From contig NC_057766.1 of assembly GCF_010389155.1 (NCBI RefSeq), forward strand, positions 28,467,516-28,531,515: a stretch of DNA of 64,000 nucleotides. The letters are read 5' to 3'. The first letter of the stretch is position 1; each line of letters opens with the position of its first letter. Under the pieces are notes generated by a model. That model was not told the origin of the DNA, ran no database searches, and worked only from the letters and a program-made list of their open reading frames with translations. The DNA comes from Erigeron canadensis. Taxonomy: Eukaryota; Streptophyta; Magnoliopsida; Asterales; Asteraceae. Shown piece by piece: positions 21,895 through 52,402 of this stretch. Position numbers and translations under genes: made by a program.

Positions 21895-24800
21895 TTAAGA
21901 AATGGTAACTTTAATGGTTGTCAAAGATTTGTTCATTGTATTCACCTTTCTTTTAGGACATCCAATTTTGTTGTGGCCTACTTCCTTACAATACGAACAA
22001 GCCCTTTGCTTCTTCATTCCGCCATTCATAATCGAATTTATATCAGATTTTGATATCTTCGCCACTGTGATTCTCTTAGATTTAGTAGTCTTGGGTACTG
22101 AAACGATCGGAAAGGATTCCAAGCTACATGTTTCTGAATGCTTCCCTGTCTTTCTTTGCATTTGTTCCTCCACAAAGCTAATAAGAAACAAATTAAGTTT
22201 ACTAAGTTCATCAATTGAATCTCTTGCTTCTTCAATTGCCCTTCTGCAATTATTTTGAATGGCCCACATTTCTGTTCCCCTATGATACTCAGCTATTGAC
22301 TCATTTAATTCTATTCCTTGATCATCCTCAAGTTTCTCTTCAAGGTTTTGACCTTCTAACTGGGGCGGAGACTTTTCATTATCTGTAACAGTCTCTAGGA
22401 TGCTAATAAGTTCCTGCGTAGTTGATTCAGACATGCCAATTTCGAGCTGATTCGTCTTACAATCCTGCAATTTATTACAAGAAGCATTGCAACTACCATT
22501 CCACACTAAAAAAGGTACAGTAAGAAAACTTTTTTGGTCCAAGAGTTGATACAGAATATATACTGTAGAACTTTTAGACTAGAAGAGCTCCCACATTTAT
22601 AGATACTTGTCTCATCTTGATACTGGAAACAACATCAACTTTACTTAAAAGAGCCTGATCGGCTTCAACAGTTGCACAATACCTCATTTTTTGGATCAGA
22701 AGAAACGCCAACTACTTCCATATGCTTTTTCGATAGCTTTTCGTGGTGGTAATCTTGCTCATTTTGATATTCACTTTGCTCGCCACTTTGACGCATAATG
22801 TTGCTGAGTTTTGTAATCAACTTTTCCTTCACGGGGGCACTGCCTAATTGCAGATTCAACTTAGGTGGTCCGGGTGGTGGTATTCTTTTCTCCATTTCGT
22901 TCATAACAAGTTCATTTTTGGCACTACAAGTAGCATGGTTGTTCTCCTCATTGTGACCACTGTAACAATCAACACTACAGCCCATAGTATTCAAAATGAC
23001 CTTCCCCAGGGCAAACCTAGTCTCTATGGAATCCCCCTTTTTGAGTAGGTCATAATTTATCTCAAAAGAACATCTACCCTTCCTGTAGGCTTCCACCTTG
23101 TGAACAAGGATGTGAAAAAGTTGTTTACCGTGACGCCCCAGCTTATGAGGTATAAATATCTGAAAACGTAAAGAAAGAGAATGATTAATCACATTAAAAG
23201 GAGCAATAAGATGCTCAACTTGTGAAAAATAAAGCACACTGTTACCTTATAACATGGATAATAAAGTTACATAGAGCTTTGAAATGATCATTGGAGTATT
23301 TTTATAGAATTGAAGTAGATTGTGTTGAAATTAACCAGATGGCCCAGAAACAAGGGTTAGAAACTAAACGATTGCTAAAAGCAAAAAAAATAAAAAGTGA
23401 TATGCATAAGAATTATAACAGGTGACAGGTTTGGTAACTGGTAAAAATGGACTGATAATGATACAGGTCTTTTCTACCACTGGTCATGTTGGATTTACGA
23501 CTTGATCGTATGGGCCCAGTTTAGAAGGCTGTTTAGGCAGGAGGCCTTAATTGTTTAAAGACAAAAGCAGCCGGCCCCTTATTTCACTTAGGCCCAGATT
23601 GCTTGGTAACTTGGGGATCAAGTTATTAACCCTGATCTATGTATTATATATAGTTTTCATGTACTTGTAATTCCTTAGAGAGTGTTGAGACAGAAGCTTT
23701 AATAAAATATTCTAATTGCAGCCCGTGCATTAGTTCACACATATTAGTGTGAGATACCACGTAGGTCTCTCGTGTTCATTCTTGTTATTTTCTCATTCTT
23801 GCGTGCATGTGTTCAGTATAAATCCTAACAGGTCAAATGGGTTGTGTTGGGTTCATTTGACTGACAAGTCCATTTTAGAGACAATTTCTGTAAACCATCT
23901 ATGTGTTAATGACTACAAAAACAATGTTATTGCAATGATAACCTAAATCTTTGAGAAGAAAAAATTCGATGTTGTACACTTATAAATAGAAACTCAGTGA
24001 CTTTCAACCCACTACACCCATTTGACCTGTTCACTTTTTGCTAACTTTTTTCATTTGACCATTTGAGATTTAAAACAGCCCGAATCTACTCATAGGTAAA
24101 TACATCAAAATGACACCTCTGAGATAAAACAAACTACATCCTGTATCAAGTTAATAGTCCTGCCACTTCTTAGTTATGATTAGGAACATACCAAACCAGG
24201 GCAGAAAAAACCAGGATACTTTGCCATTGTTTTGTGCAGGCTATCTGTCTCGACCATAATGTCAATTGCATCCACAGCAAGCATTGCTAATTGATTTACT
24301 TTTTCAGCAACCTCATCATCTGAAATGGTTTTACACGTCTCCACAGTTTCAGGCTCAAACTTGACTAATGGCCCACCATATTCTCTTGCAAACATGAGTC
24401 CCTCCTGCCAGTTCTGATGATACAAAACAGAAGCAAAAGTCAAGATAACAAAAGGATGTTGGGGATTGTTCACTAGCGCCAAATGAAAGCCCAAAAGTGC
24501 AATCCTGTTTCACAAACGAAAGGTGTTTAGCCAACTTTCTTTAATATACACAAGCTGTTAAGCACATATGATATTCCATTTAAGAATCTACTCACCATAA
24601 GCTACTTTCAGAAGGACGGTCACAAGTGACCAACTTATCCAAATGAGAGAGCAGTTCCTGTAGAAATGAACTGTAACCATTAATTAATAAGAAATGAGCC
24701 AAAGAAAGAAAGCAGATTTTTCGTCAATACAGAAGTACGCCAATGAAAAATGGCTTCAGTCTGATAAGAATAAAGTAAATAAAATAGAAGACAGAGATAC

Positions 24801-27796
24801 AGATGCAGGAATAAAAAAATTTTGGTGTCAGAGATAATAAAAAGGTAAAGTGACTGAGCATACCATTAGCATCATGGAACTTTGCCCAGACCTGGTGGCT
24901 TTTTGAGAAATGTATAACGCCTGAAATTTAGAAAATTATAAATATTGAGTCTTTCCGTAAGTTGGTTCTTTGAAAACAAGAAAGCAGAACAATGGTTCTT
25001 GACTCACCTGAACTGGTAGTAGAATCTCGAGAAGATGATATTTATGAAGCAATGACAATGAAGATTCAGCAGCCCCAAATGATAGCATATAATTTAACTC
25101 CATCATGGTCCTGAACTGAATAAACAAATATATTATACCAATGCAAAAGTTAAGTTGGAAAAACAATGGCTTTTCTCTGGAATTCATTCTTTTCTCTGGA
25201 ATTCATTCTTATCAATGTATTCTACAATCCAGAAATAAAAACAGGAGAGAATCGGAGATGCATAAGTACTAGCTTATTAATGGTCTATTTGACCTAAACT
25301 ATATCATAGCTAGAACGTCACCGGATAGAGTCCTTAAATCTGCTATGAGATGATCCCAAAGATAAACTTTCAGCAGTTTGTGTGTTATCTAAAATGTAAC
25401 TTAACTTACTTCACTACTTAGCTTCATATTTAAAAATGTATGGTCATTCCTATTGTAGGCAAATTATCAAAAAAGTGATTACTGTCTCCAAATTTCTTCA
25501 ACCCATTTTGTCCAATCAATCTGATTAATTTGCTAATATTTCCATAAGATAAACTAAAGTGAACAGTTAATTTATCATCAATATTCATAAGGATTAGATT
25601 TAGCACCTGTCCTAATCTTGCGACCGATGATGTTTGTTTAAGAATTGCACTCTTGATTTCCTTTGACAACGATAAGCCAAGACGAGCGGCAATTCTCAAG
25701 CCGCGAAGTATTCTTGCTGAATGAAAGAAAACAATGAAGGTCTACTAAAGTTCATTACAAGAAGATTATTCAGCTTCATGGTTGTGTGGTTTAAAGGACA
25801 ATGAACTAACCAGAGTCCTCTGTGAATGACAGTTGGGCAGGTACTAACGTCCGTAACTGAAATCACATCATAAATAAATCTCAACAATGTCAAACATAAT
25901 AAACTGATCAACTGCAGAAAGCATTATAAATGGAAGAAGGGGTCAAAACTCAAAAGGTACTAATTCCAGAAGAACAATGTAACAAACGATTGAATAAGAA
26001 ATGAATTTAACCTTTAGTTCCAACAGATCCTTCATTCCATCATTGTAATCATATATTTTGTGAAGAAATGGGTCATAGAACAAGCTGTTTCACAATTTCA
26101 TAGGCAAAAACCAAGACAGAAGATTAATCAAAACATAGAACATAGCCAAGATAGCATATATTAACCATCAAACAAATCTTTATAGTGCAAGTGTGAAACA
26201 CACAGGACCTCAAAATAACAGGAAACCCAAAGCAGCAGAAAATACCTGTTGATAGTGAAATCTCGATGCATCGAGTTCTTCCAGCGAATAAGATCTAGTT
26301 TATCACGGACTTTAGGCATTTGAGAGACAAGAAACTTCTCTTTTCCTTCTGCACCCTTGCCCAGTGTATCAAAACTAGATACCTGGTACAAAACATCAAC
26401 TTGCATAGTGTAAACAGAGATGCAAAAAACATATCTAGAAGCAAGAAAAGTTCAGTTATAACACGAGTGTACCAACGTACCTCAACAACGGAGCCTTTTA
26501 TAAAGACTTTACATACAGGAAATCGGGACCCAACAACTTCACATCGATGAAACTGCTTCCTGATCTGCAAAAACAGCATACATAAATTATTAATGTCACA
26601 TACAACAAATTCAGGTTGATGATTAAATTAAAAGTTAGACCCATGCAAAAAACTCACAACTTATGCTAGTTTTTAGAGTATCTAAACCTGATTAAGATCG
26701 GCAGTGGTGATGATATCAAAATCTTTAGGTGGTCTATTAAGAAGCAAATCTCTCACACATCCACCGACTAAGTAGGCTTCAAACCCTGTAAATAATGGTA
26801 TAAAATAGAATATTCGATCAAAAAACAACTCCTGCAAATAACATCCAGGAGGAAATTGGTATAAAAACAAAAAGAAGAGCCAAAATGTTGAGGAAAGCGT
26901 ATAAGCAGGAGCAACATTTTACTGAACTGAGATACACAGAGAAGGCAAGCCAACAAAATTATGTCTTACACGCTTCAACTTTCAAAATAAAAGACACATA
27001 CACAAGGTCAGCTCTTTTTCGTGTCAAAAAAGTTATAGAAGACATGTCGAATATCCTTATCGGGTAGCTCTACTATCATATAAAGCATCTATGTTACAAG
27101 GTCCTCCTATTTATAAGATAACGTTCTCAAATACTAAAGAGAACAGATTTCAACCCTTTGATCACCTCATGATCCGATCTCAGCCCTATATTCCTTCCGT
27201 ATATCCTTACAACCAAACAACCCTCATCTTTTCCACCATATACACCCACAAAAGACATATTAGCAAGACTATTATAAAACAGTATATACGATAAATTAAT
27301 AAAAACGTCACCTTTGGTTCGAAGAATCTGCAAAACGGAGTATGGTGACTGCGGTAACATTCCTCGAGCCAACCCCAATGATCTTGCATCCACTTTTTTC
27401 CATTTTGAAACATCAACTTCACCTACATTATAATAATAGTAAAAAATATATATATATATATGTATGTATGTATGTATGTATATAAACACACATATTTATG
27501 TAAAAAAAACTATAAACAAAAACAGTTTCGAAACTCATTTCCGGGCTTAACGGCATACCGGGTTTAAAGACTAAATAATCATCTTCAGTAAGTGGTTGAG
27601 GTTTAGTATCTCCAGCTTCAACACATTTATGGTAAATACCCTGTTATTAGTAAAATGAAGATATAAATACAATTGTTCACAAGGTGTGAATGCGCAAATG
27701 AATATGATAAATAAATGAAGGTTTTTATACCTGTAATGAGAAAAAAGGTCTGATGGGCAACAGATATACGTTTCGTCTAACGATTATCGCGGCCAT
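21895..27796 (-). CDS. Bacterial-type poly(A) polymerase / tRNA nucleotidyltransferase-like protein with CCHC zinc knuckle, copy 2
   Basis: Paralogue of the gene at 9314-17091 with the same exon order (15 exons, about 800 aa). The start is the ATG at 27796, giving [19 protein letters not shown], again a basic presequence. The head domain has [18 protein letters not shown], then [10 protein letters not shown] and [15 protein letters not shown], so catalytic residues are kept. The last two exons (22683-23159 and 21895-22464) encode a proline- and acid-rich linker, a putative coiled segment, and near the end [14 protein letters not shown], an exact CX2CX4HX4C zinc knuckle that may bind nucleic acid; copy 1 has none. 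A donor at AAG|GTGAAT (21946/21945) could splice to an in-phase small exon at 21715-21757 ending EASCRIDTEST, so the true C-terminus is uncertain. Copy 2 is probably closer to the ancestral form, but this is inference. Confidence 0.86.
23482..23835 (+). mobile_element. Solo LTR with 5-bp target duplication
   Basis: The LTR is 23487-23830 (344 bp). It opens TGTTGGATTTA and closes TAAATCCTAACA, an inverted terminal pair with TG/CA ends, and is flanked by the 5-bp repeat GGTCA on both sides. Inside are a TATA-like TATTATATATA near 23642 and AATAAAAT near 23700, as expected of an LTR promoter and poly(A) signal. No internal gag-pol remains, so it arose by LTR-LTR recombination. It sits in an intron of poly(A)-polymerase copy 2. 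Confidence 0.93.
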
Positions 27797-28869: not shown

Positions 28870-29766
28870 AATTACAGTTTTAGTTCAAAAAACTTTGTCT
28901 CTCAACACTTTTGGTCCTGACCATAAACGTCTGTTGAAAAGAAGGTCACGTGTCTGGCAAGTGATGGGTAATCTCGTAATTTGGCTTAGAGTTAGTTACA
29001 GAAATCGTCCTTATCGTGATCCATCACTTTCAGCTCTAGTCCCTAGCTTCTAATATTTAACTTTAAGCCAAATTATATATATACTGAAAACCTATGTAAA
29101 TATACAATTACTTAATGCGTGAAATGTACAAGCCTTTAAACACATACTAATTTTAACAATATTTCGTTTTAACCCCTTAAAATATAACCAAATTTCATTT
29201 TAACCCCTAACATTTCAATTTTTTAAACTTTTTTTTACCTAAAAACCTATGTAAATATACAGGTACTTTATACGTGAAATGTACAAGCCTTTAAAGCACA
29301 TACTAATTTTAACCAAATTTTGTTTTAACCTCCTAAAATTTAACCAAATTTTGTTTTAACCCCTAAAATTTCAATTTTTTAACTTTTTTTACCCCACATC
29401 AACGTTTTCGCTTTCATTTTCGACTTTTCGTGACACTAAACTTTTAGGTTTTCATGTTTTCATCAAACAACTTTCACATATTTACGAGTTTACTTTTAAA
29501 CATTTGGTTTTTGATTATTTTATCTAAGTACTTTATGCATGAAATGTACAAGCTTTAACGTTATGCGTAGAATGTACAAGGTCTTATATTTTTACCATTT
29601 TTCATTGTAACCTCCTAAACTTTCTATTTTTTAACCTTTGTCCTATATTAAAGTTTCCGTTTTTATTTTCTTGACACTGAATTTTTGGGTTCTCATGTTT
29701 TCATCAAATAACTTTCACATGGTTACGATTTTACTTTTTAAACATTAGGTTTAACTATTTTCATCC

Positions 29767-29806
<40 letters not shown>

Positions 29807-30900
29807 CGTTTTTAAATTTGCCCCACATCAAAGTTTTCATTTTTATTTCCTTGACACTAAATGTTTGGATTCTCATTTATAATATACTAAAAAGCTATAT
29901 GAATGTACAAGTACGTTATGAGTGGAATGTACAACTGTACAAGTTTTCTATCTTTTAACTTTTGCTCCACATTAAAGTTTTCGATTTTATTTTCTTGACA
30001 CTAAATTTTTGGGTTCTTATGTTTTCATCAAATAACTTTCATCTGGTTACGATTTTACTTTTGGTTTTCACTATTTTTATTCGTCTTTTTATATACATAG
30101 CGTTTTTAAATTTGTCCCACATCAAAGTTTTCGTTTTTGTTTTTCTTGACACTAAATTTTTGGATTCTCATGTTTTCATTAAATAACTTTCACATGGTTA
30201 CGATTTTACCTTTTTCGTGTAGAAAGCGTACCCCGCAGCAACGCGCGGGTACTATAACTAGTTACTTAAACTAAAACCCAAAATCTTATCAACATATATT
30301 TACTAAATCTTATATACAAACTTCTAAATATAATATATACAAACTTTTAATATATCCACAAAGTGAGCCACGACGAATGAAAAAAGAAATGAGATGTGAC
30401 TATGTGAATGCTACTATAAAGACATGTGCGTGAGGAAACTAGCTAGGAAAGCATGAAACAAATTGAAACTCACGTCTGATAATAACTTAATTATCGGATT
30501 CAAGTGAGTGTTGGGACAGATTCCAGTGACTCATAACTACCGCCATCTCAGGTGACTTCAAACCTGGTAACTCAAATAATGGCAGTGATTTATTAAAAGT
30601 TTGTATATATTATCTCTAGAAGTTTGTATATAAGATTAAATTTAATTATGCTGATAAGATTTAGGGTTTCTAGATTTAGTTTAACTAACTTGGCCTAAAG
30701 TTAATAATTAAAAGTTAGGGGCCAAAACTGAAAGTGGTGGTTCACGATAGAGACGATTTCTATAATTAACTCTAAGCCAAATTACGAGGTTACCCATCAC
30801 GTGCCAAACACGTGAACTTCTTTTTAACGGACGTTTATGGTCAGGACCAAAAGTGTTGTCGGAGCAAAAACTATAATTTATTAAACTTAGGGATGAAAGC
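28870..30900. repeat. Interrupted inverted repeat (foldback)
   Basis: The left arm 28870-29072 continues after an insertion at 30262-30372; the right arm (about 30600-30890) is its reverse complement. Shared blocks include ACACTTTTGGTCCTGACCAT, AACGTC(T/C)GTT, GTGATGGGTAA and CTCGTAATTTGGCTTAGAGT. Arms are about 300 bp once the inserted DNA is removed. No coding frame. Confidence 0.75.
29073..30261 (+). mobile_element. Helitron-like insertion inside the left foldback arm
   Basis: Comparison of the two foldback arms shows extra DNA between about 29073 and 30261. Its right end is the Helitron-type GCAACGCGCGGGTACTATAA followed by CTAG|T. The 5' end does not show the usual TC. The body is made of diverged repeats of a unit with CTTTCACATGGTTACGATTTT, TTTTCATCAAATAACTTTC and TGTACAAG words, plus a (TA)n run at 29770-29804. 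Confidence 0.65.
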
Positions 30901-36974: not shown

Positions 36975-37199
36975 AAGGATGTGGGTGCCAATGATGTTTA
37001 GTTCAACTGGTCAGGTTTTACCAAGGTCTTAAGTTCGTTCCTTCGGGGAGATAAGTCTTGAAATTTTTTCTCTGAATACTTGTAACGGCCCATGATCAAC
37101 ATTTCGTTGTCTAGAGTACGTGCAAGACTTTACCATTACACGGTGAGATTTTCCGTATTCCGATTGAATATTCGAGAAAAAAAAACCAAGAATGTGGGT
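36975..37199 (+). mobile_element. SINE, family copy 1
   Basis: The body is 36987-37187, with imperfect 12-bp flanking copies AAGGATGTGGGT (36975-36986) and AAGAATGTGGGT (37188-37199). The head has a Pol III A-box-like TTTAGTTCAACTGGTCAGG and a B-box-like TTAAGTTCGTTCC; the tail is A-rich. A second copy of the same family lies in opposite orientation at about 42336-42545. Confidence 0.8.
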
Positions 37200-37689: not shown

Positions 37690-37789
37690 GCCTTATAAAG
37701 GAGATAGCCTCATAAATCATTTTCAACAATGTACACATGATAATGCATGATGTATCATACATCAATGCCTACAACTTTCTCCCTCCTCC

Positions 37790-38072
37790 ATAAATTATTT
37801 TATTCCTCTAGTTTTTTCAAAATCTTTTATCTCAAAAACCGTACATCGATAAATTATAAAAATGATATGGGTGTTCTTAAAATTTCATGCTTTTTCATTA
37901 GAGATGTTATTCGATATACTTTCGACGAATTTTTAAATCCAAGGGCAAGACCCGTACGACTAAGGCATTTGACTATGACACTCTATGACATATCACCTCC
38001 TATGACCTATCACACTCTATAATCTATCACCCTCACCATCTCACCACTGCAACGCGCGGGTACTTACTCTCG
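37790..38072 (+). mobile_element. Helitron 3' part ending CTCG|T
   Basis: Carries one copy of the arm motif of the foldback at 17310-18075 (TTTTATCTCAAAAACCGTAC, TTCATTAGAGATGTTATTC) and ends GCAACGCGCGGGTACTTACT, then CTCG before a T-run. The left end is not defined. Confidence 0.6.
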
Positions 38073-38273
38073 TTTTTTATAAAAAAAATTATAATATTGA
38101 ATAATTAAGCTAGAAATCATTTCTCAATTAAAAAAATTAAATTATTTATAATCACAAACAAATATAAAACAATTAAATTAATAAAAGTTCACATTACTAA
38201 ATAGCTCCTCTTAAAATTGAAAAAAATTTAGATAAATAAGTTAAAGTAGAGAATAAAAGTAAATATTGTAGTC

Positions 38274-38280
<7 letters not shown>

Positions 38281-38330
<50 letters not shown>
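38281..38330. repeat. (AT)n microsatellite
   Basis: Fifty bases of uninterrupted AT dinucleotide, directly upstream of the SINE target site at 38332. Similar runs occur at 19845-19890, 29770-29804 and 44317-44360. Confidence 0.95.
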
Positions 38331-38331
<1 letters not shown>

Positions 38332-38333
<2 letters not shown>

Positions 38334-38601
38334 TTAAATAATTTTGAAGAGCAGCATGGTTGGATCAGTGGTAAACACCCCTACCTCTGGAAACAGAGGT
38401 CATGGGTGCGATCCTCATCCCATGCAAAGGTTGGAGGGCCTTTTTCTACCATTTAGGTAGATACTGGAAGCAGCATCTCTACTTAGGTAGAAGTAAGGTT
38501 TGCCTACATCTTAACCTCCCCCGTACACCGTCGAGGTATTGGGGCTCAAAACCCGCGGAAGACGGTACTAAGCAGTTACTTACTTTTTAAATAATTTTGA
38601 A
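38332..38601 (+). mobile_element. tRNA-derived SINE with perfect 17-bp target duplication
   Basis: Flanked by identical TTTTAAATAATTTTGAA at 38332-38348 and 38585-38601. The 236-bp body opens with a tRNA-like promoter: A-box-like TGGATCAGTGGTAAACACC and B-box GGTCATGGGTGCGATCCTC. The body contains the GTAGAAGTAAGGTTTGCCTA word resembling Au-type plant SINEs. The perfect duplication implies a recent insertion. Confidence 0.93.
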
Positions 38602-38865
38602 AGGTTATATGTGTTATTATTTAGATAAAAATTAAACTTTAAATAAGTTAAAGTAGAAAATAGTAATTGGATATGTAAAAGGAAACTAAAAAATGCAGTA
38701 CATCTGTACTGTACATGTAAAGCGTTGTCACATGATTTATCAAGCATTTTGACCAAATCCCTTGTTACTTGTTAGGTCTATCGACCAAGTCGGTGGGTAT
38801 AGAAACATTTTTTCTAGCATTTTGACCAACCAACCAACCATACATTTGTTTGCCAAGCGTTTGTG

Positions 38866-41047
38866 TAGGGGGATGAAACGAAAATCTGGTTTGCTACTCA
38901 AACATTGTTTCTTATTATTTTTTTCACAAATATATATTAATAAAAAATAAAATAAATATATAAATACACTTATAAGCAATCTCAAAAATATAGTTATGAA
39001 TATCAATTAACTAAATTACGTTTGGGGACTGGGGTGTTGCTATTTAGATATAGATATAGATAGATATAGATCTTGATTCAGTCATCATAAGGTTAGACTA
39101 TCTACCTCAATTTCTCTTTACTATCATCTTTATTTTTATGATTAAATTATATGCATAATTAGTGTTTATATCTATGTTTGCTGTGTATTTTTGTATATCC
39201 ATCTTGTTTCGAGTTGATTACTTGGTTAGTTAGGAACTGATATAAAAGGAGCTGTTGTTTGTTAGATATAAATATATAATGACTGCTACATTGTTACATT
39301 TCATATCTGTTTGTTCCTTCTTATTAACTAACAACTAACTACCGTATGATTTAATAGTGTAATTGGAATTTAATGCGATGGTCCGAATATTGTCTTAGTG
39401 TCGTTTTTGCAATCGTCGCCTGCCCTTTGTAGCCGTATATTGTTTCTTATTTCATTTTCTTTCTGAAAGTCGATTAAGTGTTTGGGAATGCATATATTCT
39501 TTTTGAAGCCAAAAAATGCTTAGTTTGGATAATGTTTATACATATAAAAGCCGGTGCTTTTTAGGTTATTGAACGAAAAAAGTGCACTTTTTGATGCACA
39601 GGGATAGACTTATTTCTAAAACACTTGAAGCACTAGCACTTATACCCGTACATTATAAGTTATACATGTTTATTCCGTGATAAAGTTTCTGACTTGGGTG
39701 CTTCTGTGAACAATGTTGAACTCTTCGTATGTACTCTATTGTGTTTTTAATTTTATTTGGCTAATGTAGCTCTTCATTGAACACCAGGAACTATTTGCGT
39801 TGTGATACATTATATTGTTAATTTTCAAGTGTACAATTGGTTTCTGGACTGGGTTATAACCTTTTTTTTCTGTCTTTTTCTTTTTTGGGTGAAGTTGTTA
39901 ACATATAAAGTCATCTGGACTTTCACAAAGGAAGACCTTTTTCTACCCAGAAATCGTATTTCATTCTGGCATACATACATTAACAAGTTGGTAGACTAGA
40001 TACAAGGCTTAACGTCTACAATTTCTAGAAACTTAATGTCAGAAAAGGGAGATGACGTTGATGGGAGATCGGGAAAGCTTGTTGTGGATGATGTACAACA
40101 AAATGATAAATTAAACGGCACAAGTCCTCAAAATAGTGAAGATCTTAACAAGGATTCAAGTGCAAAAGCATTAGAGCAAAATGGGACACGTGAAGATTTA
40201 AAAGAGTTGCGTGAAAAGATAGAAGCTTTGAATAGACAACGTGTTATAGAAAGACCACGAGATGCCGCAGAGGCTGTACTTAAGCATCTTCGTGCAGAAT
40301 TTACAAAAGCAGATTCCAAGTCTCAAGACCTTGCTGCTAAACTTGCTGAAGGTTATATAAAGTTCCTGTTTATCCTATGACTTATATTTTTTCTGATTGC
40401 ATTTATAGGTATACCTACAATGTATGTTGCTACCTTTATTTTACTCCCTTTTATACCAATATAAATGCATACTTTGGTGTATGGACACAGCTGAGAAGAA
40501 TCTGCACCAACAAGTCAAAGAGCGTGACGAGACCAACTCCGAGCCTGGTTCCAAGTTGAATCAGCTTCACAAGCAAGCAAAACAACAAATCCAAGAAATT
40601 GAGAAGGTAATTCTGTTGTGGGCCATTTAAAATTATGCTATTGCCATCTTGCTACATTACTGGTCAGATATATGTATATTCTCTCACACTGGTACCCTAG
40701 GGAAAAGTTAGTTTTAATACCTCTGTGTCTGCTTCTTATTTTATCAACACAATATTTTTTTGTATCAATGAATCACTGTTATTAGTTGGTTAAAGTAATG
40801 TATCCTCTAGTTATGTAAGCTAGAAATTATTTACGGCACAGTTGATATTTTATTTTTCTACGCAGTTAAAGGAATTATCATGTAAACATTTAGCTTGTGT
40901 ATTAGTTCTGATTGGTTTGTGAAATAATCATTTATAGGAGAAAGATGACCATGCAGCTCAGCATCACGAAGTCAATGAAAAGTCCAAGCAGGCTGGTTTG
41001 CAACTGCCAGGATTGCAACAGGAGCTTGTCCACACACGCCAAAATGC
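38866..41047 (+). repeat. Upstream copy of duplicated golgin promoter-exon 3 block
   Basis: Matches 44150-46914: both begin GAAACGAAAATCTGG-like, share the ATATAGATATAGATAGATAT / CTTGATTCAGT block (39045 and 44495), the TGGTACCCTAGGGAAAA word and the first three golgin exons with introns. Similarity stops at CGCCAAAATGC (41037-41047 here, ending 46914 in the other copy). Confidence 0.88.
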
Positions 41048-41975
41048 AAGCCAATACTACCAAAACTCTCTTTTTTCCTCAAATCCTAGTTTAATTTCTT
41101 TTAGTCAAAATCCGCAAACCTCACAAAATACTGAAAAACAACCACGAATCAATAAATGGGATGTTGCTGAAGACGTTGCTCTGATGTCAGCATGGTGTAT
41201 GATTAGTGCAGATTGTATTGGTGGGAAAAACCATAAAATAAGATCATTGTGGACTGAAGTTAAGAAATTGTATGATGCAGCTCGGGAAGAAAATCCAAAA
41301 AAACTTGGTGATAGGAATATCGACCAAATGAAAGGTCGTTTTAAACGACTAAACGAAAACGTTGGACAATGGGTTGCAGCATACCAGGAAGCACACCGCC
41401 TAGTAAGAAGTGGAATGACCCAGAGAGATATTGAAAACAATGCTCATAAAATTTTTGAGCAAAGTGGGAAAAAGTTCCACGACTCTGTTGTATTCAATGA
41501 AGTTATGTGCAAATACCCAAAGTGGGCTTTAGAGACAACTCGTGACACAACACGTTCCCGTCCTGAAGAAGTAGATATAGAAGAAAGTGGTGAAAGTACG
41601 AAAAGAACAAGGACTACAGAAGAAGGAGACTATTGTGTGAATTCCAACCCAGATGCGCCAACTAGTGGTGGTTCATCAACACAACGTCCAACAGGTGGAG
41701 AGGCACCCAAAAAGAAGAAGAAAGGAAAATGCAAGGTTCCTAATCAAATTGTTGAAGAACTTCGTGCAATGAGGGTTACTCGAGAAAGTGAAGTTGATTT
41801 TATGAGAAAAAGACTCGAGTTCGAGGAAAAAAAGGAACAAAAGAAAGAAGAAAGAGAGCTTAAGAAAATGCAACTTTTGCATCTTAACACATTATTACAA
41901 AAGGAACATCTGTCGTCTGAAGAAGATAAAATTAAACGTTCTCTAATGTCAAAGTTTTATGGAAACTTAATGTAG
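40036..41975 (+). CDS. Chimeric gene: golgin N-terminal coiled coil fused to PIF/Harbinger-type Myb/SANT-like ORF
   Basis: Three exons (40036-40351, 40491-40606, 40938-41975; 1470 nt, 489 aa). Exons 1-2 and the start of exon 3 copy the golgin at 45752 (start MSEKGDDVDGRSGKLVVDD; splice sites preserved), including coiled-coil segments such as AKALEQNG and LHKQAKQQIQEIEKEKDD. At 41047 homology ends inside codon GCA and the frame continues SQYYQNSLFSSNPSLISF into a SANT/Myb-like domain (about residues 200-290: KWDVAEDVALMSAW, SLWTEVKKLYDAA, MKGRFKRLNENVGQWVAAY) and a NAM-associated-type C-terminus (ELRAMRVTRESEVDFMRKR, glutamate/lysine coiled coil, SLMSKFYGNLM). Such SANT proteins accompany Harbinger transposases, but none is seen here. 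Relative to the parent it lacks a 50-codon in-frame block and one further codon. A basic KKKKKGKCK may be a nuclear signal. Expression is unproven; it could be a two-gene artefact only if transcription starts inside exon 3, which lacks an early ATG. Confidence 0.8.
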
Positions 41976-42271: not shown

Positions 42272-42620
42272 TGGTTTGGTATTGCTTTTGGTATCCTTTG
42301 GTTTTCATTTATTGACTTTCATTGGATGTATAGTAGGTTTTTTTTTTTTTTTCTAACATTCAGTCGGTATGCGACATCAAGAAAACTTCACCGTATAATG
42401 GTGAAGTCTTACACGTACCTTAGACAACAAGCTGTTGACCATGGGCTGTTACAAGTATTCAGAGGAAATAACCTCAAGACTTGTCATCCCTAAGGATCGA
42501 ACTCAAAATCTTGGGTAAAACCTGGGATGCATCTGATCAGTTTGACTAGTCATCATTGGCTTTGATATTGCTTTTGGCATCCTTTTGGTTTTCATTTATT
42601 GACTTTCATTGGATGTTTTT
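42272..42620 (-). mobile_element. SINE family copy 2, minus orientation, inside a 58-bp direct repeat
   Basis: The SINE is about 42336-42545. Read on the minus strand it matches the copy at 36987-37187 (shared words TTTTACC, TCTGAATACTTGTAACAGCCC, CATTA-ACGGTGA) and ends in a long A tail (the T-run at 42340). It is flanked by two copies of a segment of about 58 bp (TATTGCTTTTGG, TTTTCATTTATTGACTTTCA and TTGGATG words at 42278-42330 and 42555-42617), differing at a few bases. Confidence 0.75.
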
Positions 42621-44149
42621 TTTAAATAGATACTCGTAAAATAATCCAACACTATCTATCCGGATATCATATACATTTTTTTTAACGACATTCTATTTTA
42701 CCTTTACTTCTAAATTACACGTATGTCTGAAAACCAGGACTCTCGAAAAACTCATATTAATCCACCCCCATAAATGTGAGAAGTGAGACTCGAACCCAGA
42801 CGGATCCTCCGAAGATCAATATACATCATGTCACTAGAAAAGATGTTTAACAAGGCCACTGACAACCCTGACGCTTTTCTTCGTTGTCACTTCAACTTTT
42901 CTCTCTCCTTAAATCACCTCTTCGTACTCACTACCAACCTTACCTCTTTCTCATCTCTTCCTTAACCGTTTTATTTGAAAAAAGAGTTTTTTTCTTCTTA
43001 TAAGTTTACGTTGAAAACAGGCCCGTATGACTCTTCCTCACCTGGCGATGGGGGAAGAGCAAAATAAGATGATTGCCACGCCGAGCTCATGCCAACCTAG
43101 GAAGGGAGGACGAGATTGCACGCCGAGCTTTTGGACTTGCGTTGGCACCGGCCTAAGCATTTGTAATTTTACAAGTCAGCTTTGCCTTTTTCTGACACAC
43201 ATGTTGAACTGCGTATATAACCATTGATAATATGATTGTCGAGGATGAAAAAGACTCATATCTTTAACTTTTTTTGTGTGAACAACAGTGGTGATTGGAC
43301 TCAGCGGCATGCCTCTTCATCGTCCAGTAGAGATCGACCACGTCGCCAGCACAGTCAATCTTTCCGAGTTTCTAAGTGACACGTCTACAAACCAACAAAG
43401 AAGAAGATCTATTGATTATGATGAACAATATCTGTATTATTCCACCAAACCAATTGCAAGCCTATCAAATTATCACAACTCCACAATAGAGAAGCTCAAT
43501 GTTATTAAAAACAATCTGATTGAGTATATATGGTGAATATTTTCCCGTAATGAATAAGCCTATTATTTGTATGAGATGTACTTTTAATTTACATTTTTAT
43601 TAAGCAATCTTTATGAGTGTAAATTGAACTTTCTTGTATCGAATAACTATGTTGTTTGTTATGTACTTATAATACACATTTTTATTACATATTTTATAAT
43701 ATAATATAATGTCAAATATTTATTATTTTATATTCAATATAAATAACCTGTTAGTTTATAAAAGTAATTACTTTTACTATTATTATTGATGGAAAACAAT
43801 AATCACAATCATATTATTATTAAATAAAAATATTCGTTTAGGTTTGGTTTGAGCGTGAAGATTAATTTTGTGCGGTATAAATAGAAAATAGTTACTTGGT
43901 TGGTTTACCCTCATTAATCTTCGTATTTTTTGGACGGATTAATAAGGGTATTCTCCTATTGGTTATTGAAATAGACATTTTTATTTCGAAAGAGCTCTCT
44001 GGCGTGAACCCGGTTAACACAATGTATGCTAAATTTCTCGCTGTCGAATCACGATACGAAATTTTAAGCGAAATTCACCTTTAAAAAAAATAGAAAAATA
44101 AAATAAAAAAACAATTGTAATAAGAAGTTGGTTTGAGTTAGAATTATGA
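42621..44149 (+). other. Spacer between chimera and golgin, unrecognised open segments
   Basis: Contains a tRNA-B-box-like GTGAGACTCGAACCCAGAC near 42783 and a relatively GC-rich patch at 43020-43200. An open segment at 43288-43536 follows an acceptor-like AACAG and encodes VIGLSGMPLHRPVEIDHVAS..., which I do not recognise. It may be the tail of the same Harbinger-type element or a captured gene fragment. No transposase motif seen. Confidence 0.4.
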
Positions 44150-44311
44150 GGGGTAAAACGAAAATCTGGTTGCCACTCAAAGTTCCCCATTGTTTCACGA
44201 ATACGATTTGTTCATAGAATAATAACATAAAAGGATAAATTATTTTATTAATAATTAATAAACATATAAGCCTTTTTATTTATATGAATCTCCACCCCTT
44301 TTTATTAATCA

Positions 44312-44363
<52 letters not shown>

Positions 44364-46914
44364 GTTAATTATATCAATAATTACGTTTTGATTGATACAC
44401 AGAGGGGTGGGGGGGTGTTCCTGTTCAGATTTTAGATCCCTTATTACTTTCTCTTTCAAAAAAAAAAAATAATAATAATCACGAAATACACATATATAGA
44501 TATAGATAGATATAGATCTTGATTCAGTTATCCATAAGGTTAGACTGTTTACCTCTTCACTATAATCTTTCTGTTTATTATTAAATTATGCATAATTAGT
44601 GTTTGGATGTATGTATGTTTACTGTGTGTTATCGTATATCGATTTTGTTTGTTTTCGAGCTGATTAGTTAGTTTGTTAGTTGCTGAATATTGATATAAAA
44701 GAAGGTTTTGTTTATTAAATGTAATAAATAACTGCTACATTGCTGCATTTCATGTCTGCTTGTTGTTAATTAGTATTTTAAAACGTAAACAACTTTACAC
44801 GATTTGTCATAGTGCGTATCGAACTTTAGTCCTGTGCATTGTATGTAATGAAGTTTCAATTCCAGTACATTGTATGTATCCGACCAATCAAAAACTTACA
44901 AGTGGCAGCTAATATGGTTGCCGCATATACCCGGATACATACAATGCACAGGATTTGAAAGTTCATTACATACAATGCACGAGATTGAACTAACTATTCT
45001 ATGATTTACTAGTGTAATCGAAGTTTAATACAACGGTTCAGATATTATCTTCTATCGTGATAATCTTATGTTGTTTCTTGTTTTTTTTTTTTTTTTTTTT
45101 CTTTCTTTCGGAAAGTTGAGTGAGTGTTTGGGAGTGCATATTTTAGTGCTCACGGCATCTTGTATTCTTTGTTTGAAGTCAAAAAGTGCTTATAACTCGT
45201 AAGTGTTTGGATAATGGATATATAAATAAGCCGATGCTTGTTAGGTTATTGAAGGAAAATGTGCATTTTTATATGCACCAGGATATACACTTGTATGTAA
45301 AACACTTGAATCTCCAGCACTTGTTTTTAAGAAATTCTGGACAACCCTTAAATTATAGATTATACATGGTTTTTTTTCGTGATAAAGTATCTGAAGTGGG
45401 TGCTTCTGTGAACAATGTTGAACTCTGGTAATCGTATGCAATCTACTATGGATTTTTTTTGTGGGTGGGGGGTAATGTAGCTGTCCATTGAACAAGAGGA
45501 CCCCGGTTCATTGCATTATTAATTTCCAAGTCTGCAATTGGGATTTCCATACCGGGTTATAACCAATTTTTCCGTCTTTTTCTTTTTCTTTAGGTAAAGT
45601 TTTTAACATACAAGGTCACCTGGACTTTCATTAAGGAAAACCTTTTTCTACCCAGAAATCATATTTCAATCCCGTATATATATTTTACAAGTTGGTAGAG
45701 TAGATACAAGGATTAACGTCTACAAAATAGATCACGATATTTAGAAACTCAATGTCAGAAGAGGGAGGTGACGTTGATGGGAGATCAGAGAATCATGTTG
45801 TTGATGATGTACAAGAAAATGATAAATTAAATGGCACGAGTCCTCAAAATACTGAAGATCTTAACGAGGATAATGTGTTATCCAAGGATAATGTTTCGTC
45901 CAGTAATCACCTTACCTCTGATAATAGTCAAGATCAGCTGATGCAAATGGTGGTAGATCTTAACTTTCAAAACGAGTACCTGAAGTCTCATTTCCATGAC
46001 TTGAAAAACGTACACATGGATTCAAGTGCAAAAGCATTAGAGCAAAATGGGACATGTGAAGATTCAAAAGAGTTGCATGAAAAGCTAGAAGCTTTGAATA
46101 GAGAGCTTGTTATAGAAAGACAAACACGAGGTGCTGCAGAGGCTGCGCTTGAGCATCTTCGTGCAGAATACACAGAAGCAGATTCCAAGTCTCAAGCACT
46201 TGCTGCTAAACTTGCTGAAGGTTGTATAAAGTTCCCTCTTATCCTTTCACTTTTATCTTTTGTCAATCACATTTATAGTACCTTACAATCTGCATTGCTA
46301 CTTTTATTTTACTTTCCTTTGTAATATAAATGCATATGATGGTGTATGACACAGCTGAGAAGAATCTGGACCAACAATTGAAAGAGCGTGATGAGAAAAA
46401 CTCAGAGCTTGATTCCAAGTTGAACAGGCTTCACAAGCGAGCAAAGCAACGGATTCAAGAAGTTCAGAAGGTAATTTTCTTTGTGGGCCGTTTAATACCA
46501 TGCTACTTTCATTATTCTACATTGCTGGTGAGAAATACTGTATGTATATTCTCTCATACTGGTACCCTAGGGAAAAATCAGCTTTAGTAACTCTGGCCTG
46601 TTGCTTATTTTATCAACACATAAAACTTGTTGTCACAATGAATCACTATATGGTTGGTTAAAGTTATGTATCCTCTAGTCATGTAAGATGGAAATTATTT
46701 ACAGTACAGGTGATCTTCTTTTTTGTATGCAGTGAAAGCATGTATTATGTAAACTTTTAGCTTGTGTGCTAATACTAATTGGTTTGTGAAAATAATCATT
46801 TCCAGGAGAAAGATGACCTTGAGGCTAAGTATCGTGAAGTCAATGAAAAGTCAGAGCAGGCTTCATTGCAACTGTCAGGATTGCAACAGGAGCTTGACCG
46901 CACACGCCAAAATG
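44150..46914 (+). repeat. Downstream copy of duplicated golgin promoter-exon 3 block
   Basis: Counterpart of 38866-41047; see that entry. This copy carries an extra palindromic MITE (44821-44990) in its promoter and a (TA)n run (44317-44360), and continues into the complete golgin gene. Confidence 0.88.
44821..44990. mobile_element. Palindromic MITE in golgin promoter
   Basis: Arms 44821-44884 and about 44930-44990 are inverted copies (GTGCATTGTATGTAATGAA with TTCATTACATACAATGCAC, and CATTGTATGTATCCG with CGGATACATACAATG). The orthologous position in the upstream duplicate (around 39345) lacks it, so it inserted after the duplication or was lost from the other copy. Confidence 0.8.
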
Positions 46915-49900
46915 CTAATGAGGCACTGAAAGCAATTGATACAGAGAGACAACAATTGCGAAGTGCAAACAATAGGTACTTGTATATAACTTGTGATTTC
47001 ATTTTTCCGGCATCAAACAGTTATTGTCTTCTTTATCCTTACATCAATCGTTATCTGTATATATACTGGAATAATATCCCAAGCAGTTGTAGAAAATTGC
47101 CAAACAGTATGTAATGCAATGCTTTGCTTGGCAAAGAAAAAAAAAGAAGAGAATTACCAAACAGTATAATTGTTTTCTCTTGATTTAAGGGCATAGTTGT
47201 TATATTCAACCATCTTTGAAGTCGAGTCTTTTCCATGCATTTTTTTTTTGTTTTTAGCTGAGTAATTACAGTCTCATTCTCATTTAGACTTCGGGACAAT
47301 ATTGAAGAGTTACGTCGTTCTCTGGAGCCCAAAGAGAATGCTATTGAGACATTGCAGCAATCACTTCTTGAAAAAGAACAGGTATTGAAATGTTTGAACT
47401 AGTCTTAGCTTTAATACAATCAATACTTGTGACTGAGCGAATTTACCATAGAATTTTTAGTGTTTTTCCCGAATACATTATCTTTTCATCATATAACCGA
47501 TAAGTTGATCATCCAAGTAAGATTATTGACTTTGTAATATGAGAAAATTAAGAAATTTATGATAAGAATAATTGATATCAACTTGCAAACGTACAGTTGC
47601 TAGACAACATGCGAGGGCTACTGCAAGCTGCAGAAGAAAAAAGGCAAGCCTCATTGGCTGAACTTTCTACAAAACATCAACAGGTAAAATGCACTATGAG
47701 TTTCGAGTATGGATCCAGTATAGTATGAAAAAAACCTTATTCTTAAGTTAAATGTCTGCTTTACTTTTCAGCAAATAGCAAACCTGGAATCTCAACTTAC
47801 TGACTCGGCAGCAGATAGAAGTAAAGCAACAGAAATGATATCTTCTCTGCAGGTAAACAAGTCATATATGGATACTTACATAATTATTATGCTTTTAACT
47901 AAAAGTAGCAACAATTGTGGATTGGGAAAAGCCTGAGTTGAAGGGGTGGTTTTATGTAGCAGTCGAAATGGCATGACCCAGAAAACTTTGTCTAATTTTT
48001 TTCATATTTTATGCATAGTCAATGTGTTACATATGATTACAAAATACATTTTCAGGAATACACTGATAATTGATAAATGACTTGGGAGGTTTTATGCATT
48101 AAATATGCACTTGGGTGACTTCGAGTGTTTAGAGATTAGAAACAAAACCACAAATCAATCCATAGATTAGATTATACGTCGAATTTTTCACCTCTTATTT
48201 CTAACTACCGTATAGCCAACCGGTCTTTCTACTAAACAGATGTTTGACGTTGCATCATTTTCTTATGTTAGAGACTTGTTGCAGAAAAAGAGTCAAAACT
48301 GGCAGAGATGGATGCAGCCTCAACTGGTGAAGCTGCAAGGCTTAAAGCTGCCATGGAGACTATTAAAGGAGAAATTTCCCACCTGAAACAGGAGCATGTA
48401 ATCCTCTTTTCTGTAGGCAGTGGCATCTAATTTTGGCAAGCAAAGTTTTATGTTATTAGTAGCAAATTCAGCTGACAATTTTCATTTTTTTCATAATCTA
48501 AGGAAAGTGAAAAGGAAAAATGGGAAGCTGCTTCCCAGGCACTCAGCAGAAAGCTAGAGATTGCCGAGGGTAACTGTATACGGGCTGAAGTTGAAGCTGC
48601 CAAAATGAAAAGTAAATATGCCTCTTTTTCTTTTTTACTTCCCAGTTCCAGCATTTTTTAATTTCTTAGTTGACCTGATGATGGCAACCTACAGGTCAGA
48701 TGGATCTAGAACTTTCTTTGCAAAGTCAACGGTCAAACACAAAAGATGCTGAATTAGTGGCTGCCAGAGAAGAGGTACCTCTATTGTTTACGTTGTATAT
48801 GTATTGCACTTAATTCACTGATCTCATTCTGAAATCATTTTGCCAAATATTTAGATCAAACGACTGGAAAGTGAATTTGCTTCCTACAAGTCCCGTGCTC
48901 ATGCACTACTTCAGAGAAAGGATGCTGAGCTGGCCTCTGCTAAAGATAATGAACAACTTAAAGTTCTGGAAGAGTCACTGAAGGTGTATATTTGGCTTTA
49001 TTTTTATTTATTTTTGTTTTGTTTTTGTGATGGTGAGATTCGCTAATTTACTCACATATAGAATGTTGTACTTTTAGGAGGCTGAGAATGAAATAATAAC
49101 AACAGCTGGTGAAAGGGACAAAGCGCTACAGGATCTTGAGAATGCGTTAAGTCGTCATGACAAAGAACTCAGTGCTAGGTAACTCACTAATTTCTTTTTC
49201 AAGATATTTAAAATTTGTTTTTATGTTTATCAGATATTGTCAATGGTTTCTAGCATTGATCTGACTACTTTAATATTATCTTTAAGTTTTTATGAATAAT
49301 AATTAGTAGAGGTGGCATATGGGCAGGTTTCTGGTAACAAGTCAAATGTTTCTCTCGTCAAATTGGTTGAAATTCTGGTACATTTTCGTAACAGGTTGGG
49401 TTGACCAAGAACACCAGTTGATCAAAAAAAAATTCTTCTAATTTTAAAGTCGTAAACAATTTCTGTGTCAAATAGTCTTAAATGTGTAAAATTTAATAAA
49501 AATTTAATTTTTGGAGCATTGCCTGGTGCTTTTCATGTCCTCATCATCTAGCTTGATATTCAATCTTGATCACGACTTCTTAGTCTGATGATTTTTTAAA
49601 GTTTTTGACAACTTTTCTTGAATGATATCTTATGGTTGATTCTGTTCATCTTTCATTTCTACTTCAGAGATGAAGCTCTTACCGTCATTGAGCAGCAGGT
49701 TAAAAACATGGAAATGAAGCTCTCTTCTGCACTTTCCAGACATCAATCGGAGAAAGAGTCTTGGGAAAAAAACCTTCAAAATGTGGAAGAAACTTGGCAA
49801 TGTAACTATAACCATTTTAAGCCTACGTACCTAGAATCCCCTTCAACTTAAGTTAATGATTACACTGACTATTTCACAGTGAGATTCCAAGGAATAAAGT

Positions 49901-52402
49901 CTGAACTTGAACAACAAAAATCTTCACCCAGTGAAACTCTACTAAAAGAAGTACAAGATCTCCAAACACGATATAAAAAGTTGAAGGTGCTATTTGTCAC
50001 AGTTTCTATACCGAGTCTACTATCAAGTTATACTATTGCTAAATTCTTTTAATATAAAAATTATAGGAAGAACATGATTCATTTCGTGATCTTGCTGATA
50101 AGTTAATTGAAGAGAAGGACGCGGAGATTGCAAGGCTTGCAGACAACAATAAAAATCTTCTTCATTCATTGTCATTAAAGCCATTGGTATCTCTCCTGCC
50201 CTTTCATTCTGTTCTTTCTTCTTGCCCTAACTTCATCTTCATCATCAATTCCAGGCAAATAACAATGAAAATGGCCATGATATGGGTACATCAAATTCAA
50301 ACACCTCAGTTGCAGAACAGCAGATATTGGTATGTACAATTTTGCTTTGTATGGTAGGTTTTAGACTTTAGAGACATTCTGTTTTTTATTTTCTTTTCTG
50401 TTTTTTTTTTCTTTTGTTTAAATTTTCTTTGAAAATGTTTTTTTTCTCATCTCTGGGTGTCAATCAAATCTATTGAGTTGTTATGGTTACGTATATTGCA
50501 TATGTGACTACCGACAAGGCGATAAGCATACAAAATCATTTGGAATGCAGATTTTGGCAAGGCAACAAGCTCAAAGGGAGGAAGAGCTAGCTCAGTCACA
50601 ACGACATATTCTTGCACTTCAAGTTAGTTTTATTGGCCTTATACTTGAGTTTCCTCCTTAAATTTAAAAATGGATAAATGGGTAGGAACCCTCTGGTACC
50701 ATCTTTCTTAAGTTTTTATTGTAGTTTTATATGTACTTTTTTCCAGGAAGAACTTGAAGAGCTTGAACGTGAAAATCGTCTTCACAGCCAGCAGGTATAA
50801 ATTTTTCATTATGAAAATCTTTGCTAATGGAGACGATATCTTGAGGTGAAGATGTATTTTTAATTACGTGACATTGAGACATTTCCCATTAGAGGTGGCA
50901 AGTTGGCCGGGTTAAAATAGGTTCAGGTTGAAACGTACTAGATCTTTTAATATAAAGGATAGATAGTTTTATCATGTCTGCATAAAAAATAGACTTTGGT
51001 TGAGTTTAACCCATTTGACTATTCCCTTTTTGTACAAAAGCTTTAATTTGACCTGTTTGAGGCATAAGACAACCCAAATTTACCAATTCTTAAGTTAATG
51101 GATTAAATTTACTACCTATAGCTCAGATGATCATACAGAATATGGTATGGACTACATTCTAATCCACTATTATTTTTCTTATAACAACCCACAGCAAGCT
51201 ATGCTGAAAGACGAGCTCCGAAGTATGGAAAGATCAAAAAAGAGGGAAGGAGTAGATATGACGTATCTTAAAAATGTCATAGTAAAGCTTCTTGAGACAG
51301 GTATCTTACTAGGTGCTCAATTGTGGAACCTCGGTGAAAGCTAAATTTATGTTACAATTACAGGTTTCTATAAATTTACCTGTGCACTGTTAATAATGTA
51401 TCATGCTGAACCTTTTTGTGAATAGGTGAAGTGGGGGCTCTACTCCCTGTTATCGCTATGCTCCTTCAGTTTAGCCCTGATGAGGTGAGCAAAATATTTA
51501 CTCAAAGTTCACTTGGAAAATTGTTAACTTGCCAAATTTAATTTGTTAATTTAACATTGTTCAAGCTGGTTTTTATTGTCATGCTGAGGAAATAAGGAGA
51601 TTTGATTGTGGGTCCTATTTGCTTTATGAAATCATCCACACCTTATAGAATGGACAATGTGAATGGAAAATGTGCATGTCAAAAGGGATGTGTAATACTC
51701 TAGTCAAAACTTGCTCGGTTTGTAACTGGTTGGGCCGAGATGGCCCATCAATACTTTTGGTTCATTTTACAAAAAGCTCAACTATTCAATTAACACGGAG
51801 TACTTAATTATCTTTTTTTAAAGTTCAACCCATTCAATGTATTTCAGTTCTATTATATTTCTTAATTTTTTACTTCTTAGATCTGTTGACGATACAGAAA
51901 ATAAATCAAATTAGCCCATTTGCAAAAAAGGGTCAAAGTCGCCAATGTTCAGCAAGTTTTATTCTATTTTCATCTCTCATTTTGCGGGCCCACATCATAT
52001 CTCAAGATATGTTTCCTTTTTTTCATAAACAATATGAATCTTGAGATGTCATCGCTACCCACATCATATCTTCGTTTCTCATTAGCACATGCATTTGGCG
52101 TATCCAGTAGCGATCCAGATGCCTATTTGGCTATAGATCTCAGGCCATTGTTGGCAAAGGGCGTACAAAGTTTCCTTGAACCACTTTGAGTCCTTCGCAA
52201 ATTTAATACCTTACACAGAGTAAAGAAACACTCAACCTCTCCAGAGCAGCTACGCTCCAGATCTAATTAGTTTCATTTCATACTAATGCAGTTACAAAAG
52301 TGTCAAAACGCTTATCGGACTTTCACAGAAGCTCCACCAAGCCCAGGAGGTGAATCACCAGGACCTGGACTCTCGCTTCTTTCACGCTTCTCCTTCTCAT
52401 AG
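45752..52402 (+). CDS. Golgin with GRAB domain (golgin candidate 3/4 type)
   Basis: Long coiled-coil tether of Golgi membranes. Twenty exons (45752-46220, 46355-46470, 46806-46975, 47288-47381, 47597-47683, 47772-47852, 48272-48397, 48503-48611, 48695-48774, 48855-48983, 49078-49178, 49668-49801, 49880-49986, 50067-50186, 50255-50329, 50551-50622, 50747-50794, 51195-51300, 51426-51484, 52292-52402) give 2394 nt, 797 aa. The acidic N-terminus MSEEGGDVDGRSENHVVDD leads into almost continuous heptad-like coiled coil (residues about 50-650). The C-terminus carries the GRIP-related Arf-binding (GRAB) motif KREGVDMTYLKNVIVKLLET, GEVGALLPVIAMLLQFSPDE, and ends LSLLSRFSFS, as in Arabidopsis GC3/GC4. 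By family knowledge this end recruits the protein to cis-Golgi through Arf-type GTPases. The last intron (807 bp) holds foreign-looking sequence. Start chosen as the first ATG of the conserved acidic N-terminus. Confidence 0.93.
49310..49480 (+). repeat. Intronic AGAGGTGGCA repeat
   Basis: Begins TAGAGGTGGCATATGGGCAG with the following TCAAATTGGTTGAAATT and GGTTGGGTTGACC words of the family. In intron 11 of the golgin gene. Ends approximate. Confidence 0.45.
50888..51090 (+). repeat. Intronic AGAGGTGGCA repeat
   Basis: Starts TTAGAGGTGGCAAGTTGGCC and ends with TTTGACCTGTTTGAGG / ACCCAAATTTACC words, the same family as the repeat ending at 10010 and the ones near 49312 and 54407. Lies in intron 17 of the golgin gene. 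Ends approximate. Confidence 0.5.
51985..52250 (+). other. Unrecognised open segment in the last golgin intron
   Basis: A frame from about 52037 to 52189 encodes LEMSSLPTSYLRFSLAHAFG and then VSSSDPDAYLAIDLRPLLAK, ending in a stop. It reads like a protein fragment, unlike the AT-rich introns around it, but I recognise no family. The word CCACATCATATCT occurs twice nearby (51989 and 52059). Possibly a captured exon or an old insertion. Confidence 0.35.

Follow-up and report, generated by a model that had tools for sequence, protein, structure and literature searches.

Harbinger transposons code for two proteins that work jointly, a nuclease and a Myb-type DNA-binding protein. According to one account, both proteins have been domesticated repeatedly, as in Arabidopsis HDP1/HDP2 and ALP1/ALP2 (PMC7282668). 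Co-domestications of Harbinger proteins are also described for insects in a second source (PMC9710019). A further source describes host exons that have become fused to transposase DNA-binding domains, with SETMAR, CSB-PGBD3, KRABINER and the F-box-HTH fusions of nematodes as examples (PMC12062965). Here, we describe a locus of Erigeron canadensis (horseweed) in which the duplicated start of a golgin gene is joined in frame to the Myb/SANT-like ORF1 of a PIF/Harbinger element. Horseweed is the subject of a transcriptome paper (PMC8535903). In the open-access literature found, titles and abstract openings did not contain the chimera, and a search for a GST-Myb precedent gave nothing usable. The stretch of DNA that was analysed, referred to as the window, is 64,000 nt long. 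Because the parent gene, the golgin fragment and the element with the broken transposase all lie within 14 kb, one can tell from the locus in which order events took place and how selection has acted on each half separately.

Structure of the candidate chimeric gene

The initial annotation proposed that a duplicated golgin start runs in frame into a Harbinger-type SANT ORF, and the exon model and homology agree with it. The chimera and its golgin source consist of the following features:

39048..40035, plus strand: 5' flank of the partial golgin copy, a candidate promoter or leader (72.7-77.9% in blastn against the flank of the parent, from 44494 on)
40036..40351, plus strand: exon 1, golgin-derived, with the start codon (splice model)
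40491..40606, plus strand: exon 2, golgin-derived, 39 aa (splice model)
40938..41047, plus strand: golgin-derived portion of exon 3, up to the junction (blastn and splice model)
41048..41975, plus strand: Harbinger ORF1-derived portion of exon 3, 308 aa, to the stop codon (homology)
45752..52399, plus strand: parent gene, encoding protein GRIP of 797 aa (P0020) with a C-terminal GRIP domain

The three exons proposed by the annotation were reproduced in full. Their lengths (316+116+1038) sum to 1470 nt, or 489 aa plus a stop codon, the frame has no internal stop, and both introns are GT-AG. The junction of golgin and ORF1 sequence also falls where it had been placed, at 41047/41048; the last duplicated blastn block stops exactly at 41047, paired with 46915. 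A single open frame spans host and element sequence, and the splice sites are conserved, as in a host-transposase fusion. The proposal of a new gene holds as that of a candidate.

Where does the golgin half come from? A blastn comparison within the window pairs the duplicated blocks at 39048-41047 with 44494-46915 at 73-83% identity, introns included. Exon 1 of the copy differs from the parent by two in-frame deletions, one of 50 codons and one of a single codon. A partly palindromic, MITE-like insert of ~220 bp sits in the 5' flank of the parent at about 44765-44987 and is missing from the copy. In the parent protein, the GRIP domain (PF01465) occupies residues 725-765; a scan of the products of exons 1 and 3 of the chimera gave no PF01465 match. 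The chimera lacks the GRIP domain, and Golgi targeting of that kind is therefore not expected. Separately, a 320-aa protein of Tanacetum cinerariifolium (P0027) has a GRIP-like N-terminal part, with 47% identity over 24% of the chimera query. Its C-terminal part is apparently unrelated, and it is possible that this protein is another fusion of a GRIP fragment or an error of the gene model.

A protein search with the chimera, run on the 7997 candidates sharing most words, returned 26 proteins at E ≤0.001. One of them, P0002 from E. canadensis, is identical across all 489 aa in UniRef and nr and is presumably an independent gene prediction. The other 25 align to at most 63% of the chimera, one half each; for example, a Mikania protein aligns to the second half with 62% identity over 63% of the chimera (E 8e-115). 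Judged by homology, the chimera is not a product of chance: its golgin half matches the parent over ~2 kb, and its ORF1 half matches the Mikania protein. The database name of P0002, “glutathione S-transferase T3-like,” is misleading. Identity as a GST is not supported by Pfam, with no GST match at E up to 1 for the products of exon 1 and exon 3. The same label, or “T2-like,” is attached to P0008, P0013, P0015, P0147, P0150 and other plant proteins of the Harbinger ORF1 family. Thus, the name “glutathione S-transferase T3-like” covers Harbinger ORF1-family proteins.

The window also contains features at a distance from the chimera. The regions 12281-16744 and 22969-27424 share seven matching pieces with 69-80% nucleotide identity and minus-strand ORFs, and are probably tandem gene copies; beside the second of these, an ORF at 21898-22578 has a weak C2H2 zinc-finger match. 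An inverted repeat at 17356-18033 has 201-nt arms that are 87% complementary, with related sequence at 37777-37936. At 28903-30858, five copies of a 118-nt repeat lie within an inverted repeat with 173-nt arms, in a stretch with more C than G.

The ORF1 half and the decayed Harbinger element

The second half of the chimera and the element downstream of it comprise the following:

41163..41459, plus strand: helical domain predicted to be Myb/SANT-like, at about residues 220-318 of the chimera
41709..41729, plus strand: basic run KKKKKGK (sequence)
41742..41900, plus strand: long C-terminal helix, at about residues 413-465 of the chimera (AlphaFold2, residues 232-284 when numbered within the ORF1 part)
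42342..42524, minus strand: repeat within the Harbinger remnant, past ORF1 and before the transposase tail, inverted at 37012-37185 (79%, 183 columns)
43157..43264, plus strand: HARBI1-type transposase remnant, piece 1, with two stops and 11 residues missing (tblastn)
43363..43548, plus strand: HARBI1-type transposase remnant, piece 2, in a different frame and with one stop (tblastn)
43417..43907, plus strand: Harbinger 3' end region, with DNA homology to genome copy L006 (local alignment)

A profile search with the 308-aa ORF1 part found 93 proteins at E ≤0.001, the named ones coming from Asteraceae and other plants. In P0021, P0023, P0024, P0180 and P0213, an ORF1-family part and a PF04827 transposase domain occur in one predicted protein, and homology to ORF1s that sit with this transposase places the ORF1 part among the PIF/Harbinger ORF1 proteins. 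The annotation had called this half DNA-binding. A Myb/SANT-like helical arrangement is indeed predicted, but a Pfam match above cut-off, which would have given the Myb name a sequence basis, was not obtained; PDB sequences also gave none, and a Foldseek search was without matches at E ≤0.001. Among 14 aligned proteins, the family tryptophans W230, W249 and W340 of the chimera are invariant and W289 is nearly so. The AlphaFold2 block that holds the C-terminal helix has a pLDDT of 64-97. The KKKKKGK run is one that we take to be a possible nuclear-localisation signal. Another member of the family may have met a different host gene: P0025, a predicted JmjC-domain protein of Lactuca sativa (768 aa), has an ORF1-family match over 30% of the query with 47% identity, and may be a separate fusion with a host gene or else a wrongly joined model.

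How is the ORF1 part translated? The ORF1 of other copies has, at its start, an ATG and some 20 codons missing from the chimera. The first in-frame ATG past the junction is codon 227, which lies within the domain, and an in-frame TAG directly precedes exon 3. With no earlier ATG on the ORF1 side of the junction, the complete ORF1 domain needs the golgin ATG. Independent translation of the complete domain is ruled out by the position of the codon 227 ATG and by the TAG before exon 3.

The Harbinger origin given in the annotation is supported by the transposase remnant downstream of ORF1 and by 3' DNA common to other genome copies. The linked remnant pieces match P0021 and P0024 in tblastn, with E 2e-6 and 3e-7, respectively, in a 2.6-kb search, and with E 6e-7 and 3e-4 when the whole window is searched; in the latter search, piece 2 matches P0024 with E 5e-3. 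P0023 gave no match to the transposase tail. In total, the tail (43157-43548) has three stops and a frame change. Beyond it, 43417-43907 aligns to L006 with a score of 96 compared with a maximum of 54 in 40 shuffles, and L005, L004 and L002 likewise exceed their own shuffles against the 3' DNA of the element. Homology to the 3' end of the element extends to 43907; its 5' end was removed by the fusion.

A search of the 426-Mb assembly listed 22 matches, with 117 of 233 candidates scored, such that the counts are lower bounds. Apart from the chimera, the listed matches include 11 of ORF1 type with at least 40% identity, at 7 loci, and these 11 are fragments or contain stops; no other full-length open family member is present among the matches scored. 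Of four copies compared by DNA, the closest is at dS 0.62, and the ORF1 part therefore does not look like a fresh insertion with siblings. Thus, as for domesticated Harbinger genes, it has no close, intact mobile siblings among the scored matches and is retained where its relatives have decayed. L002, L006 and L008 form one element subfamily, with DNA identity of 94% between L006 and L002 and 86% between L002 and L008, and their ORF1 frames are broken or fragmentary.

Selection, origin and possible use of the fusion

Is the golgin part of the chimera guarded by selection? Over 180 codons, copy and parent differ with dS 0.217 and dN 0.110, a ratio of 0.51 (bootstrap 0.32-0.87), and the divergence of the introns (0.224) is near the golgin dS. 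Amino-acid changes were polarised with the GRIP proteins of Rutidosis, Mikania and Lactuca and checked against nine outgroups picked from 120 listed of 391 found. The 42 differences divide into 32 on the copy branch, 4 on the parent branch and 6 of unassigned direction; a neutral simulation expects 38 (28-49) on the copy branch. Columns that are invariant in the nine outgroup GRIPs have changed at 15 of 64 in the copy compared with 2 of 64 in the parent, and at the remaining columns copy and parent differ at the same rate (26/113). Prolines have been gained at chimera positions 74, 124 and 168, where 0 of the 9 outgroups has one. On these comparisons, the golgin residues are not visibly guarded and appear to drift at a near-neutral rate, with a copy-branch ratio of ~0.7 fitting as well. 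The reading frame, in contrast, has been kept. By the same clock, the golgin part should have gained 2.6 stops and 5.8 frameshifts, and none is observed; if the part has been neutral since duplication, an open frame has P about 2e-4 (about 0.07 x 0.003), odds whose indel rate comes from a single gene pair with 1394 aligned noncoding columns. Thirty of 34 noncoding gaps between copy and parent are not multiples of three, whereas the exon indels are the two in-frame deletions. That the joined frame is open despite the free drift of the golgin residues suggests that a new gene may have formed.

The ORF1 part is similarly open, with 4.1 stops and 9.9 frameshifts expected in its 308 codons since duplication and 0 observed. 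At the residue level, 8 of 86 conserved columns deviate compared with about 20 if neutral since duplication (P 0.0017; Poisson baseline of 3.2% from six close relatives, with 21 of the 93 ORF1 relatives used). Dead copies keep the conserved residues similarly, with deviations at 6/77 columns in L002 and 4/52 in L008b; further copies deviate at 7/29 (L004), 3/14 (L005), 3/14 (L008a) and 2/12 (L006). The residue-level test was dropped as evidence for domestication of ORF1, since this control shows that it does not separate the readings. The deviation of the chimera (9.3%) lies within that of all 21 relatives compared (0-20%) and is greater than that of the six close relatives (1.4-4.7%), and hence the ORF1 part may have been somewhat relaxed.

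What, then, is the fusion? It could be a relic, a real join of transposon and pseudogene that is untranscribed or functionless, with a frame open by youth or luck and a database entry that is a computed model. We consider this a substantial possibility, although one clearly short of even. The neutral rate of the golgin part, the similar residue conservation of the dead copies L002 and L008b, and the excess deviation of ORF1 over its six close relatives would all be expected of a relic, and the generic name of the entry is borne by several transposon-family entries as well. The difficulty lies in the open frames of both halves, which neutral decay since duplication would rarely have spared, and in the company they keep: the other family copies found and the transposase of the element itself are broken. 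At the opposite extreme is the proposal of the annotation that the golgin coiled coil serves as an arm that oligomerises the DNA-binding part. The chimera does contain most of the N-terminal region of the parent to residue ~232, less 51 codons, but the drift ignores conserved positions and has introduced three prolines, from which, rather than from a predictor, loss of the coiled coil was judged. Moreover, AtGRIP is reported to dimerise through its C-terminal GRIP domain (PMC4047078), a domain missing from the chimera. The arm is not supported by these data, and a functional chimera of this kind is improbable. A translated leader for a useful payload is favored over both, because a pseudogene would lose its frame and a working golgin would keep its residues. 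This argument, on which our reading turns, depends on an indel rate taken from a single pair of genes.

Two other explanations concern the way in which the halves met. The contiguity of a gene fragment and an element ORF is what a Pack-TYPE capture would leave, with a Harbinger element taking up a GRIP fragment that it may carry as cargo. The fragment, however, lies in tandem with its source, ~3.4 kb upstream and in the same orientation, and includes its own 5' flank; within the scored part of the genome search, the short golgin piece of exon 3 had no match beyond the copy and the parent, and tblastn found no ORF1 or transposase match upstream of the fragment in the window. We consider capture the least probable of the explanations raised here. 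Scarcely more probable is a one-step origin, in which a tandem duplication with breakpoints inside ORF1 and GRIP exon 3 made the fusion directly; this is a variant of how the fusion arose and not of what it does. The order that it predicts, with the fragment followed by the ORF1 remainder and the intact GRIP gene, is the order observed, and an additional short match (38870-38911 with 44150-44196, 48 columns) lies upstream of the main duplicated block. There may also be weak homology between 38200-38869 and 43500-44149, which score 25.4 compared with a maximum of 24.4 in 30 shuffles, the one of three upstream comparisons to do so; the other two fall within the shuffle range. The upstream element copy that a one-step origin predicts gives no ORF1 or HARBI1 tblastn match in the window, such that a later deletion would be required.

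The explanation that we favor, with an even chance of being right, is that a Harbinger ORF1 protein has been retained and is used, with a promoter and start codon borrowed from the golgin gene and the golgin peptide as a passive leader. The tandem partial copy of the GRIP gene consists of its 5' flank, exons 1 and 2 and 110 nt of exon 3. This copy became joined in frame to the ORF1 of a PIF/Harbinger element lying between it and the intact GRIP gene, and the join removed the 5' end of the element, the ORF1 start codon and about 20 codons. The promoter taken over from GRIP would drive transcription, and the golgin peptide would be kept solely for its start codon and frame. The working part would be the ORF1 protein, a putative nuclear DNA binder of the Myb/SANT type with a long C-terminal helix, which would contact a HARBI1-like partner as other Harbinger-derived proteins do; the partner would now be encoded by the host or supplied by other elements. 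More tentatively, and with a chance clearly below even, the gene may be caught early in its birth. The tandem golgin fragment would have saved the ORF1 protein from decay by lending it a promoter, introns and a start codon, with selection guarding only the frame of the host half while the plant uses the DNA-binding half. If so, the host side of this transposase capture would have supplied expression in place of a domain. Should the chimera be transcribed and common to sister species, it would provide an example, datable by its neighbors, of a transposon DNA-binding protein becoming a host gene. The route in such a case would be through a donor of a promoter and start codon.

Comparison with known systems

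A close counterpart of the ORF1 half is HDP2, likewise a host-kept Harbinger ORF1 and described as a Myb-type DNA-binding component (PMC7282668). The chimera has the family tryptophans W230, W249, W340 and W289, which may include the three reported as required for DNA binding. In the available part of that source, HDP2 is not described as a fusion, whereas a golgin leader replaces the ORF1 start in the chimera. The HDP1/HDP2 system also differs in its nuclease; that adjoining the chimera is decayed. ALP2 is another domesticated Myb-type component of Harbinger origin, associated with PRC2 together with ALP1, but by the same account it lacks the three tryptophans required for DNA binding, whereas the chimera retains the family tryptophans (PMC7282668). 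ALP2 is also described there as ancient, being syntenic between A. lyrata and A. thaliana, whereas the chimera is known from one species (PMC7282668). Protein GRIP is the source of the 5' flank, exons 1 and 2 and part of exon 3 of the chimera, and differs from it in having a C-terminal GRIP domain. In fusions of the SETMAR, CSB-PGBD3 and KRABINER type, the host part gives a working domain. These fusions resemble the chimera in joining host exons to a transposon-derived protein or DNA-binding domain, as summarized in one source (PMC12062965). The host part of the chimera, in contrast, looks like a passive leader and promoter, and the chimera is of the Harbinger class and from a plant. The horseweed locus thus seems to combine Harbinger domestication with host-transposase fusion, and to be distinct in that the host half gives expression and a start codon.
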